From contig CANESS010000006.1 in NCBI GenBank assembly GCA_947441115.1, positions 1 to 38,888 on the forward strand: DNA of 38,888 nucleotides. The letters run 5' to 3'. The notes beneath the pieces were generated by a model that was not told where the DNA came from, did not search any database, and saw only the letters and a program-made list of their open reading frames with translations. A program made the translations under genes and the position numbers. Shown here in pieces: positions 28,250 through 32,369 of the stretch (positions are counted from its first letter, which is position 1; each line of letters starts with the position of its first letter). Source of the stretch: Saprospirales bacterium. Lineage in GTDB: Bacteria > Bacteroidota > Bacteroidia > Chitinophagales > JADJOU01.

Positions 28250-29200
28250 GTGATAACTATTTATCAAACAATAGACAACAAACTCACCGAGGTAGAGGAA
28301 ATGAGCAGTGGTTGCTGGGTCAATATATACCCGCCATTTGATTATAATGCCATCAATCAAATTTCTGAAAAGCTAGGGGTATACATAGAATACTTCACCG
28401 ACGCGCTTGATATAGATGAGCAATCTAGATATGAAGAGGACGACGATACTAAATTTATTCTTTTAAACATCCCAATTCGAAATGAACAACTGATTAGCAA
28501 CAAGAGGGCTAGTTTCATCACCATACCAATTTCAATTATATTTAAAGATAATATTGTCATCACGACTTCTTTATATAAAAATCCAATTATTGATAGTATT
28601 ATTACTAAGTCTAGTCGAAAAAACCTATTTCAAGATATTCCGAATTTAGTCTTAAATATCTTAGATAGAAACACTGACTTTTTCCATTATTACTTAAAAC
28701 AAATTAATATCCGCTTCAATGATATAGAGAAAATACTAGATACTCAAGCCAACAATCAGGATTTTGTATCCATTTTACAACTTCAAAAATCGCTTATTTA
28801 TTTTGAGACCAACCTGCGCTCTAATAATCTGATGATGGTCAAAATGAAGCGCACCAATTTCCTAGAAACAAAAGATAATGAAGAGTATGATGATTTTTTT
28901 GACGAAGTGATTATTGAAAATCAGCAGGCGATAGAAATGACTGAGGTATATTCACGTATTCTAGATAGCTCTATGCATACTATATCTACTATCATATCCA
29001 ATAATGTGAATACCATAGTCAAGCGATTGACGGGAGCTACTATAATACTGATGCTGCCAAGTATTATCTCCGGTCTATGGGGAATGAATGTGCCTGTGCC
29101 ATTTGGAAGTCATCCATTTGGGTTTGCCTTTGTATCAGCCCTTACAGCTATCTTGATTATTGGCACAGTTTATATTTTCTTTAAAAAGAAGTGGATCTAG
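28250..29200 (+). CDS. corA: CorA-type magnesium/cobalt transporter
   Basis: Pentameric inner-membrane channel for Mg2+ and Co2+. The 316-residue protein has the large cytosolic alpha/beta N-terminal domain, a long helix rich in charged residues (about 145-265), and two C-terminal membrane helices with the selectivity motif GMN at 278-280 (SGLWGMNVPVPFG), ending in FFKKKW. The start is the GTG at 28250: it gives MITIYQ..., the usual N-terminus, and no in-frame upstream start exists. A 34-codon frame starting at ATG 28237 overlaps it in another phase. The two spermidine-synthase-like membrane genes follow after 23 bases and may be in the same transcript. Confidence 0.94.
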   Translation: MITIYQTIDNKLTEVEEMSSGCWVNIYPPFDYNAINQISEKLGVYIEYFTDALDIDEQSRYEEDDDTKFILLNIPIRNEQLISNKRASFITIPISIIFKDNIVITTSLYKNPIIDSIITKSSRKNLFQDIPNLVLNILDRNTDFFHYYLKQINIRFNDIEKILDTQANNQDFVSILQLQKSLIYFETNLRSNNLMMVKMKRTNFLETKDNEEYDDFFDEVIIENQQAIEMTEVYSRILDSSMHTISTIISNNVNTIVKRLTGATIILMLPSIISGLWGMNVPVPFGSHPFGFAFVSALTAILIIGTVYIFFKKKWI

Positions 29201-29223: not shown

Positions 29224-30795
29224 ATGCTTCTGTCTCGTTCCTATTTACTCTGTCTGGTTTTTATAGAAGGAGTTGCTGTGATGGCTGCTGAACTAATAGG
29301 AGCTAAGCTTATTGGCCCACTTTATGGAAATTCGCTCTATATCTGGGCTGCTGTGCTTGGTATAACTTTATTCTCCCTGACTTTAGGCTATTATATAGGT
29401 GGCTGGCTTTCTGCACGTTTCCAGAATCTAATACTATCGCTAGGTATTTTGGCCCTCATAGGAGGCGGGTTAATGCTCAGTGTCATGCCCTGGCTAAGCT
29501 TGAGCATCATGACACAATTAGTCGAAGGAGATATCGTTTATGGAGCGGTTGTTTCACTGTTGGTTTTTCTATTTCCTACCTTATTTCTTTTTGGTCTCTC
29601 GACACCATTATTTATTAGTATTTTAAATCAAGAGTCGAGTACCTCTGGTAAGACTTCAGGATTCGTTTATGCTATTTCTACCTTAGGAGGTATTATTTCC
29701 ACCTTCAGTTTTGGCTTCTATCTTATGGAAAATTTCGGTATTACCTGGCCTTCTTTTTATTTAGGATTGATAGTCGTTTTAGCCTGCTGTATTTCAATTA
29801 TATGGTCGAGACGTTATATGTTATTTTTAAGTCTTCTCCCTTTTTTTCTATTTTATAATATCTATCATGACAAAAATTTAGTGAGCGGGGATACAGAGAT
29901 AGTCTATGAATCTGAGGGAATATTTGGGCAGATACGCGTTATCGATGCACCCGTAGAAACCTATCTTCGCGGTAGACATATAGGACGCACATTATATGTA
30001 AATAATGTAGGGCAATCTACAGCATTTAGAGATCGTTTAGAATATGATAGCTGGGATTGGTCTTATTTTTTTCCTACAGTAGCCAGTGTTACCTCCAAAG
30101 GCGGGGATGCACTTCTTATGGGACTTGGCGGTGGTACTATATGGCATCAATATAATAGATTAGGGCTCAAAACGGATGTTGTAGAGCTAGATGAGCGGAT
30201 TAAGAATACAGCTATTCAATATTTTGGAGTATCTCCTTCTGCCAATATAGTAGTAGATGATGCCAGACATTTTATCAATACTTGCCGAAAAACCTATGAT
30301 CTTATCACCTTTGATATGTTTCTCAATGAGACTCCTCCTGCTCAAGTTTTAAGCATAGAGACCTTTCTCAAAGTAAAAAAAATGCTAAGATCTCAGGGAC
30401 TATGGATGATAAATTATTTTGGATATACCGAGGGGACGAAAGGAAAGTCTGCAAGATCTATATTGAAGACACTACAAAATGCTGGATTTCATGTAGAGAT
30501 TTTGGTGACGCCAAGTGAGGATGAATCTAGCAGAAATGTGATTTTTTTAGCTTCTCATCTTCCGATTGATTTTTCTAAAATCAACTATGAAGAAAAAGAT
30601 CTGCCAAAAATTACGGATATAACCAAATATTTTCTACCACTAAAGGATATAGACACAAATGATGCAGAAATACTGACCGATGAGCGGCCGCAATTCGATC
30701 ATTTGTATATTGAACCATCACTCGATTGGAGAAAAAGAACCATCGAATACCAAATAAAACCTATCTTAGAATCTGAAATAAATTTAATTAAATAG
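29224..30795 (+). CDS. Membrane-anchored spermidine-synthase-like protein, copy 1
   Basis: A 523-residue fusion of a polytopic membrane domain (about residues 1-215, 7-8 helices) and a SpeE-like Rossmann domain (about 225-480). The membrane part starts with FIEGVAVMAAELIGAKLIGP and WAAVLGITLFSLTLGYYIGG, as in the fused MFS/SpeE proteins of many bacteria. The soluble part has the SAM-binding glycine loop LLMGLGGG (297-304), the acidic VELDERI (320-326) and VVDDARHF (343-350). Where true spermidine synthases have the catalytic D-S/T-x-D-P motif, this protein has FDMFLNETPP (363-372), so an aminopropyl transfer reaction is doubtful. It begins 23 bases after corA and is followed 5 bases later by a paralogue of the same length. 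Confidence 0.85.
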   Translation: MLLSRSYLLCLVFIEGVAVMAAELIGAKLIGPLYGNSLYIWAAVLGITLFSLTLGYYIGGWLSARFQNLILSLGILALIGGGLMLSVMPWLSLSIMTQLVEGDIVYGAVVSLLVFLFPTLFLFGLSTPLFISILNQESSTSGKTSGFVYAISTLGGIISTFSFGFYLMENFGITWPSFYLGLIVVLACCISIIWSRRYMLFLSLLPFFLFYNIYHDKNLVSGDTEIVYESEGIFGQIRVIDAPVETYLRGRHIGRTLYVNNVGQSTAFRDRLEYDSWDWSYFFPTVASVTSKGGDALLMGLGGGTIWHQYNRLGLKTDVVELDERIKNTAIQYFGVSPSANIVVDDARHFINTCRKTYDLITFDMFLNETPPAQVLSIETFLKVKKMLRSQGLWMINYFGYTEGTKGKSARSILKTLQNAGFHVEILVTPSEDESSRNVIFLASHLPIDFSKINYEEKDLPKITDITKYFLPLKDIDTNDAEILTDERPQFDHLYIEPSLDWRKRTIEYQIKPILESEINLIK

Positions 30796-30800
30796 AATTT

Positions 30801-32369
30801 ATGACCAAACTACGTTTTTTGTTTTTACTAGCCTTTATCGAAGGAGCGAGTGTCATGGCTTGCGAATTATTAGGCGCGAAGATGATATCACCCTATTTTG
30901 GCAGTTCGCTCTATGTATGGGCAGCAGTGCTCGGCATCACCTTATTCGGTCTTATGTGCGGCTACTATATAGGTGGATATATTTCTGAAAAATATAAACG
31001 TGAAGATTTAGTATATTGGATTTTAATCCTTGCAGGGGCATTCCTCGCTATTATGCCCTATACCAGCCAGTGGATTATGTCCAAAAATATTGATATGGAT
31101 ATACGATGGGGCTCTACCCTTTCCCTACTCATTTTTATGTTCCCTCCGCTCATTTTTATGGGGATGACCTCCCCTGTCATTATCAATATGATCAATACAA
31201 AAGTAGATGAAACGGGCAAGAGTGCAGGATCCGTCTATGCAATTTCTACCTTAGGCGGCATTGCAGCTACGTTCTTAGTTGGGTTTTACCTACTGCCTGA
31301 ATTCGGGATTAAATGGCCATGTTTTATGTTCGGATTTTTACTTGCTATCCTTCCACTGATAGCTTTAGTTAAATTAAAATCAAATAAAGCCCTTCTTATT
31401 TTGCTTCCCTTTTTTTTTGCCCTTAAAGGTAATCTAGCTAAGCCAATACATGATAATGCCAATGTGAGTCTCTTGGCAGAATCAGAAGGAATATACGGTC
31501 AGGTGAGAGTATTTGATTTTCCATTCTACACGGAGCAGAAAGGAGAGAAAATGGCACGGGGTCTCGTGGTCAATAACACCTTACAATCTATTCTAGATAG
31601 AGATAGTCTGGATTACAATCTTTGGGACTGGTCCGTCCTCTTTCCCAGTGCAGCTAGTATTTATCCTAAAGGCAGTTCTATGCTCCTAATGGGATTAGGC
31701 GGTGGAATGCTCTATCACCAATTTCATCGCTTAGGATTCAACATCGATGTAGTAGAGCTAGACGAGCGAATTAAAGATGCTGCCATCGATCATTTTTCTA
31801 TACCAGCGAATGCACCTATCGTAGTCGACGATGCTCGTCATGTAATTAATACTTCCAAGAAGAAATACGATGTCATTGTCCTTGATTTATTTTTTAATGA
31901 AACGCCTCCCTCACAAGTTCCAACTATAGAATCTTTTACTAAACTAAAATCCATGGTTAATAAAAATGGTATGGTACTCATGAACTTCTACGGCTTCACC
32001 AATGGTGAAAAAGGCCGCGCTGCGCGCTCTGTGATCAAAACCTTTGAAGCAGTAGGGTTTCAAACAACACTCTTACCAACTCCAGAACCTGAAGAAGGCA
32101 GAAACCTCATTATCTGCGCTAGTCTCGAAAAGCCAGATTGGTCTAAAATTAGTTACACAGAGCCCTCTCGTTTTCAAATTACACCTGAAAATATTCAACA
32201 ATTTATCCTCGATAAGACTCAACTTAGTATGCAAGATGCTGAAATACTAACTGACGAAAAGCCTGCTCTAGAGAAGATGTACGCAGACGCTGCTGCAGTA
32301 TGGCGAAGAACTCAGATAGAAATCTGGCTCAAAAATATCATGCAAACTGACATTGATTTAATGAAGTAA
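30801..32369 (+). CDS. Membrane-anchored spermidine-synthase-like protein, copy 2
   Basis: A 522-residue tandem paralogue of the gene just upstream, with the same architecture end to end: FIEGASVMACELLGAKMISP and WAAVLGITLFGLMCGYYIGG in the membrane domain, then LLMGLGGGMLYHQF, VELDERIKDAA, VVDDARHVIN and LDLFFNETPPSQVPTIESF in the SpeE-like domain. The N-E-T-P-P block is shared by both copies in place of the usual catalytic D-S/T-x-D-P. The two copies are clearly divergent, so the duplication is old and both frames are intact, which speaks for distinct or paired roles. Only 5 bases separate the genes, so they should be translated from one message. The C-terminus of each ends in a short Lys/acidic tail. 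Confidence 0.85.
   Translation: MTKLRFLFLLAFIEGASVMACELLGAKMISPYFGSSLYVWAAVLGITLFGLMCGYYIGGYISEKYKREDLVYWILILAGAFLAIMPYTSQWIMSKNIDMDIRWGSTLSLLIFMFPPLIFMGMTSPVIINMINTKVDETGKSAGSVYAISTLGGIAATFLVGFYLLPEFGIKWPCFMFGFLLAILPLIALVKLKSNKALLILLPFFFALKGNLAKPIHDNANVSLLAESEGIYGQVRVFDFPFYTEQKGEKMARGLVVNNTLQSILDRDSLDYNLWDWSVLFPSAASIYPKGSSMLLMGLGGGMLYHQFHRLGFNIDVVELDERIKDAAIDHFSIPANAPIVVDDARHVINTSKKKYDVIVLDLFFNETPPSQVPTIESFTKLKSMVNKNGMVLMNFYGFTNGEKGRAARSVIKTFEAVGFQTTLLPTPEPEEGRNLIICASLEKPDWSKISYTEPSRFQITPENIQQFILDKTQLSMQDAEILTDEKPALEKMYADAAAVWRRTQIEIWLKNIMQTDIDLMK

Follow-up and report, generated by a model that had tools for sequence, protein, structure and literature searches.

Two adjacent membrane-fused spermidine-synthase-fold proteins of a Saprospirales bacterium as candidate subunits of one half-MFS complex

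We analysed a window of 38,888 nucleotides from a Saprospirales bacterium (GenBank assembly GCA_947441115.1, contig CANESS010000006.1, forward strand), in which two neighbouring genes, here called A and B, each encode a membrane module followed by a domain of spermidine-synthase fold. Our interpretation, to which we give about an even chance, is that A and B are two subunits of one inner-membrane complex, in which paired halves of a major facilitator superfamily (MFS) transporter carry on the outer face an enzyme other than an aminopropyltransferase.

Results

Architecture of the A–B locus

A and B lie on the same strand 5 bases apart, and the two proteins (523 and 522 residues) share 47% identity end to end over 524 columns. 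Both genes are intact, in agreement with an initial annotation of this DNA that had described two intact paralogues of equal length, and both are kept in relatives. The features of the pair are as follows.

29224–30795, + strand: open reading frame (ORF) A, candidate upstream subunit, 523 aa; half-MFS module (six helices), seventh helix and spermidine-synthase-fold domain
29224–29808, + strand: predicted half-MFS module of A, residues 1–195; fast-evolving within the genus
30313–30345, + strand: D364–Q374 of A, DMFLNETPPAQ (motif alignment)
30801–32369, + strand: ORF B, candidate downstream subunit, 522 aa; layout as in A, nearer the family consensus
30801–31385, + strand: predicted six-helix half-MFS module of B, residues 1–195 (AlphaFold2 model); E14, E22 and K27 conserved in helix 1
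31386–31436, + strand: predicted seventh helix of B, residues ~196–212 (model); almost exclusive to modules followed by a synthase
31437–32366, + strand: spermidine-synthase-fold domain of B, residues ~213–522, predicted extracytoplasmic (profile alignment, model, fold matches and topology)
31692–31709, + strand: nucleotide loop of B, G298–M303, GLGGGM; G301 aligns with the Asp by which spermidine synthases select decarboxylated S-adenosylmethionine (dcSAM)
31755–31769, + strand: E319–R323 of B, ELDER; E319 is the counterpart of the acid that binds the ribose of S-adenosylmethionine (SAM)
31884–31916, + strand: D362–Q372 of B, DLFFNETPPSQ; conserved Asp, E367 and P370, with Q372 genus-specific

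Both proteins exceed the 40-bit cut-off of NF037959, “fused MFS/spermidine synthase” (135.5 bits for A and 160.7 for B), and cover nearly the whole profile. Their matches to Pfam Spermine_synth are weak, and no further PF01564 match was found in the window's genome assembly (1.9 Mb, 164 contigs, 93% complete). The AlphaFold2 model of B alone (pLDDT 93.3, pTM 0.89) contains seven helices within residues 3–212, followed by the synthase-fold domain; the module helices span residues 3–33, 37–64, 69–95, 101–131, 135–168 and 171–191. A promoter and terminator scan around the pair was uninformative, with 26 promoter-like sites against 24.3 expected.

The active site differs from that of aminopropyltransferases

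Residue counts were taken from an alignment of 88 family members including A and B, numbered as in B. The initial annotation had listed GLGGG, VELDERI, VVDDARH and NETPP in both copies, and all four were confirmed; it had also proposed that NETPP replaces the catalytic Asp of the D-S/T-x-D-P block. When solved spermidine synthases are aligned with the pair by profile, D364 of A and D362 of B fall at the first (catalytic) Asp of this block. This Asp is kept in 88/88 members, so that part of the proposal did not stand. The second Asp (position 365) is indeed absent from every member. GGG(D/E)G has been named as part of the dcSAM-binding region (PMC11107197); its dcSAM-selecting acid, position 301, is neither Asp nor Glu in any of the 88. 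The family motif is D-x4-E-x-x-P, with E367 and P370 each present in 87 members, and D321, D344, R346 and D362 are each invariant; the ribose-binding acid and Q262 are also conserved in the alignment. NETPP, one version of this motif alongside SETPP, AEEQP, GEDPP and more, occurs in only nine members (seven from the window's genus, L069 and L035; comparison loci carry L numbers). The normal catalytic motif, which the initial annotation had named as a finding that would speak for simple drift, was found in 0/88. Two residues past the second Pro, His is found in 69 members and Gln in eight (seven from the window's genus and L114). A and B share this Gln, the pattern that a change predating their duplication would leave.

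For Pseudomonas SpeE2, a different alignment has been published, in which E624 and P627, three residues apart, replace D173 and D176 and the Glu is aligned with the catalytic Asp (PMC7298707). On that alignment the wording of the initial annotation would hold, whereas on ours the Asp stays and a Glu is added; by either alignment, D-x4-E-x-x-P is no aminopropyltransferase motif.

The genomic context was in line with this. SpeD (PF02675) was not found in any of four genomes of the genus, in a search whose control was positive in 8 of 14 genomes and which did not extend to other decarboxylase types, and this makes aminopropyl transfer unlikely. The only Spermine_synth matches in the same genomes were the two copies of the pair, a weaker search also listing a 217-aa frame in genome G003 (E 1.7e-5). 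None of the equivalog cut-offs of PRK03612, PRK04457, PRK00811 and TIGR00417 was reached by the pair (at best 57.4 against 472 bits). Matches to TIGR01047 (nspC, of the carboxyspermidine route) in the four genomes scored 43.6–46.9 bits, far under the cut-off of 409, which speaks neither for nor against that route. The domain is very probably not a standard aminopropyltransferase, and the “distinct chemistry” suggested initially gains support from the missing dcSAM acid, the SpeD result and the published relatives with altered sites, namely the fungal methyltransferase NHMT and SpeE2, whose role as a synthase has been doubted.

In fold comparisons the domain of B matched best the solved aminopropyltransferases 1uir and 3anx and the uncharacterised 3gjy (Z 22–23). 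It also matched METTL13 (rmsd 2.4 over 176 residues; profile 3.9e-11), which is an N-terminal protein methyltransferase.

The membrane module resembles half an MFS transporter

Some relatives carry two membrane modules and one synthase in a single protein. We modelled one such natural fusion, L013, with AlphaFold2 (pLDDT 91.1, pTM 0.88), and its model contains the twelve-helix MFS fold of two six-helix halves. Residues 1–410 superpose on VMAT1 with Z 32.1 and an rmsd of 3.6 Å over 355 residues, and on OxlT with Z 31.4. Foldseek ranked the synthase domain first for both the B and L013 models, and the MFS match came from VIA re-alignment of L013; since the synthase domain filled the list of fold matches of B, the missing fold name for its membrane part is no evidence. 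Against MFS_1, with a gathering cut-off of 33.4 bits, B scored 20.8 and A was not listed. Because the two-module fusion is predicted to fold as a complete MFS unit, a single module is very likely half a transporter. In helix 1, almost every module, whatever its class, retains E14, E22 and K27 (or Arg). The paired modules were also matched, at rank 33 (Z 29.1, 15% identity), by PDB 9d7x, a 735-residue chain titled “The spm-bound structure”.

The two halves have evolved at different rates. Across the five more distant pairs of genus genomes, nonsynonymous divergence (dN) of the membrane module was 0.28–0.39 in A and 0.07–0.11 in B, approximately three to four times faster in A, whereas within the genus the enzyme domains were more alike (0.12–0.14 in A and 0.08–0.10 in B); synonymous divergence (dS) was saturated, which makes dN/dS unreadable for distant pairs. 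The faster half of A suits asymmetric halves but also drift.

The enzyme domain is predicted to face outward

The twelve-helix core of MFS transporters has both ends inside. Averaged over the family, the N-terminus and loops 2–3, 4–5 and 6–7 carry the positive residues, the pattern expected for an N-in orientation. A hydrophobic helix 7 was present in 101/106 modules that precede a synthase, in none of the four first modules of fusions and in none of ten genes with a transmembrane (TM) module only, a count that leaves out the interrupted gene L077. In B this helix is uniformly hydrophobic and not amphipathic.

A split form, in which a six-helix gene adjoins a separate synthase gene, occurs on plasmids of Pseudoalteromonas, Xanthomonas, Aeromonas and Sphingomonas and in further genomes. 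The synthases beside a six-helix gene have a signal-peptide-like start in 9/9 cases (weakest in L178) and the solitary synthase relatives L186–L190 in 0/5, as judged by hydrophobicity and eye rather than by a trained predictor, with hand-chosen start codons for the split synthases and L185 left out for want of a clear start. Because helix 7 is nearly exclusive to modules preceding an enzyme, and because the split enzymes bear signal peptides, the enzyme domain is probably extracytoplasmic.

Paired modules recur as operons and fusions

The genes fetched for comparison were reduced from 173 to 123 distinct ones, and trees were quick IQ-TREE runs with SH-aLRT support only. In six loci a TM-only, six-helix gene lies 1–6 bases from a full gene (L114, L115, L116, L142, L147 and, in reverse order, L060), and four complete genes encode two modules and one synthase (L013, L014, L064 and L117). 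In the tree of TM modules, the TM-only genes are joined by the first module of L013 (98) and their full partners by its second (96), and the modules of L117 group likewise with the L116 pair (96 and 94); separate genes and fusions are therefore forms of one partnership. The contig of the L064 fusion is labelled Rheinheimera (Pseudomonadota), and the relatives of this fusion are Bacteroidota; transfer or a binning error may lie behind this.

In the tree of synthase domains, A and B are sisters (88) with the single-copy L069 and L035 just outside, which dates the duplication to the genus or slightly earlier. The old divergence inferred in the initial annotation is thus borne out only in part. 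Other tandem pairs (L036; L128/L129) join members of different clades, so tandem pairing arose more than once.

The pair was found together in all four genus genomes, each at least 93% complete. At the level of the taxonomic family, four of six genomes have the genes, always as a tandem; completeness is 62% and 85% in the two that lack them. L033 and L034, relatives that carry this pair too, are labelled as Chitinophagales or Sphingobacteriales metagenome-assembled genomes. More widely, 115/298 genomes of the order gave some match, many only to short synthase-like proteins, and in the class, where three candidates were scored per genome, 74/395 matched strongly; a phylum-wide NF037959 search returned 2/296 genomes at E 1e-25, one being the window's own. 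The gene at L077:7028–8502 is split into two ORFs of 287 and 206 aa that overlap, through an interruption or a sequencing error.

Genomic neighbourhoods are lineage-specific

Directly upstream of A lies a further gene.

28250–29200, + strand: CorA-family gene

The initial annotation had seen in this gene an open link to membrane or cation physiology. The CorA-family gene is indeed the upstream neighbour of the pair in 4/4 genus genomes, but it adjoined no family member outside the genus among the loci scanned (91 loci of L033–L083 and L114–L153, genus genomes and repeats included, plus short ones). Because the linkage is confined to the genus, it is no pointer to cation physiology for the family, and we rejected it as a functional clue.

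Clusters of conserved neighbours were lineage-specific. Secreted proteins are frequent among them, for example proteins with type IX secretion system (T9SS) tails in Flavobacteriales. In six Saprospiraceae-like loci (L037–L042) the family gene has as its upstream neighbour a subtilase with an I9 propeptide, on the same strand in five, and a PAD-type peptidyl-arginine deiminase with a T9SS sorting tail (L069:5192–6970) ends 18 bases before a single-copy homologue near the window pair. Sorting tails are common in the phylum Bacteroidota, and nothing was drawn from these neighbours.

On plasmids, the family gene lies beside SCO, a CDF transporter, DsbB, thioredoxin and CcdA in Marinobacter (L168, NZ_CP021334) and beside a multicopper oxidase and CcdA in Peribacillus (L165, NZ_CP085715). 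These neighbours, together with the substrates of NHMT, raised copper or histidine-brace proteins as candidate substrates; this was rejected, as L166 and L171–L174 lack such neighbours and neither LPMO_10 nor CopC was found in the four genus genomes. A relative on a Roseomonas plasmid (L167, CP099475) adjoins a metal-sensing repressor and a nickel/cobalt efflux gene.

Discussion

Relation to characterised systems

The closest characterised precedent, likened here by its published description, is NHMT (AN4663), the fungal N-terminal histidine methyltransferase. It has seven helices (residues 1–215) and a spermidine-synthase-like methyltransferase domain, with I322 in place of the GxG(D/E)G acid and the SAM-binding E340 18 residues further on; it resides in the membrane of the endoplasmic reticulum (ER) and methylates secreted lytic polysaccharide monooxygenases (LPMOs) (PMC10349129). 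The model of B is predicted to share the plan of seven helices and synthase fold, and its non-acidic G301 and conserved E319, likewise 18 apart, correspond to I322 and E340. This likeness is one of published features, not of sequence. The bacterial proteins differ in that NHMT is mostly single-copy, that the published account gives only low-scoring PDB matches for its seven-helix part (PMC10349129), and that no counterpart of its LPMO substrates was found in the window's genus.

Pseudomonas SpeE2 (847 aa), from an induced systemic susceptibility locus, combines N-terminal TM domains with an altered spermidine-synthase-like domain, and its authors consider it unlikely to be a spermidine synthase (PMC7298707). 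As described, its E624 and P627 are three apart, as are E367 and P370 here; it is longer, and in its authors' alignment the catalytic Asp is matched by E624 rather than by an Asp further upstream. A protein of 835 aa at L132:4042–6549 (genome G109), with two weak TM-module matches and a weak synthase match, is near SpeE2 in length, and its active-site letters differ from those of the family. Beyond SpeE2, the open-licence literature that we searched yielded no paper on the membrane topology or function of the bacterial family, or on pairing of its half-MFS modules.

The SpeE-type aminopropyltransferases share the fold of the soluble domain, as does 3gjy, but they are soluble enzymes with GGGDG and D-x-x-D-P, both altered in A and B. 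VMAT1/2 and OxlT are matched as whole transporters by the two modules of the natural fusion, whereas in A and B the halves would be separate subunits with an enzyme attached. Finally, the plasmid relatives are annotated under the same NF037959 name whose cut-off A and B pass; that model comprises one module where we propose two paired ones, and its name implies spermidine synthesis, contrary to the motifs and the SpeD result.

A proposed complex and its alternatives

In the complex that we propose, each subunit would consist of a six-helix MFS half, a membrane-crossing helix 7 and, on the outer (periplasmic) side, a domain of spermidine-synthase fold. The halves of A and B would pair into one MFS-like transporter unit, as relatives do covalently by fusion. 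We infer this contact, and modestly favour a heteromer of A and B; the heteromeric pair suggested initially is supported indirectly, by the joint presence in all four genus genomes and by relatives with operons of TM-only and full genes and with fusions. The enzyme domain would be a SAM-dependent methyltransferase or a related transferase and, like fungal NHMT, would act on exported molecules, for instance on protein N-termini. Given the plan shared with NHMT, the 18-residue spacing of G301 and E319 and the METTL13 match, this appears the most likely assignment, although for methyl transfer itself we put the chances at about half.

Several points weigh against this interpretation. We know of no free SAM in the bacterial periplasm. 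The substrate class of NHMT is not evident, since LPMO_10 and CopC were not found in the four genus genomes, and the genus-specific Q372 stands where His is widely conserved. The split synthases support the topology of A and B without proving it, because they are distant from both and because the one scanned, P0002, scores better on the soluble PRK04457 than on NF037959; in the locus of L184, a further synthase with a signal-peptide-like start, no six-helix gene was found nearby. L028 and L030, which are membrane-fused but retain GGGDG and D-x-x-D-P, show the same seven hydrophobic peaks; the topology is therefore not confined to proteins with the altered active site, and the puzzle of donor supply extends beyond the altered motif. 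Among 96 complete TM-synthase genes with enough flank, 75 stand alone, 18 have a same-strand partner within 200 bases and three have another partner within 2 kb, a split that gives no frequency because L114–L153 were partly chosen for looking paired. Pairing of different genes is thus not obligatory in the family, and lone members may homodimerise.

These lone members bear on the alternative that survives best, although we think it rather unlikely: A and B would be independent homodimeric paralogues left side by side when the gene duplicated in the genus; A would have drifted to another substrate, and their adjacency would be incidental. The sister position of A and B, the predominance of single relatives, the catalytic residues kept in both copies and the faster TM module of A would all fit. 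The 5-base spacing and joint retention in the genus speak for the pair instead, and the repeated, independent appearance of tandem, TM-only and fused forms argues that two modules make one unit.

We consider it improbable that the proteins are unusual aminopropyltransferases anchored at the cytoplasmic face, with an MFS-like part that exports the polyamine product. MFS polyamine exporters exist, the closest folds are those of solved spermidine synthases, and conservation extends to the first Asp, the ribose-binding acid and Q262; set against this are the loss of both the GGG(D/E)G acid and the second Asp across the alignment, the SpeD and equivalog results, and a helix 7 and signal peptides that place the domain outside. 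About as improbable is a non-catalytic SAM or polyamine sensor that regulates the attached half-transporter, since D321, D344, R346 and D362 in every member and E367 and P370 in nearly every one are conserved beyond the needs of a binding pocket and the similar NHMT is catalytic (PMC10349129), even though the altered active site, the genus-specific loss of a conserved His and the TM-only homologues without any enzyme would suit it.

Implications for the family

Returning to a paired half-MFS complex with outward-facing enzymes, one may ask how the donor reaches them; for NHMT, limited SAM in the ER has been raised by its authors as a possible constraint (PMC10349129). We offer as an unlikely possibility that the half-transporters form an MFS unit that carries SAM across the membrane to the outer-face methyltransferase domains or takes their by-product away across it; in the tandem form, the two halves and the two enzymes would then have become specialised. 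If true, such a self-supplied donor would explain both fungal NHMT and many “fused MFS/spermidine synthases”.

That name, in use for bacteria and archaea, suggests polyamine synthesis and is likely misleading. The evidence suggests instead half-transporters that must pair and that bear a transferase outside the membrane, a location in which one would expect neither SAM nor dcSAM. This raises the questions of whether bacteria methylate exported proteins in the envelope, as fungi do in the ER, and by which route the donor arrives there. The natural split, fused and tandem forms are ready-made constructs for tests of topology and interaction.

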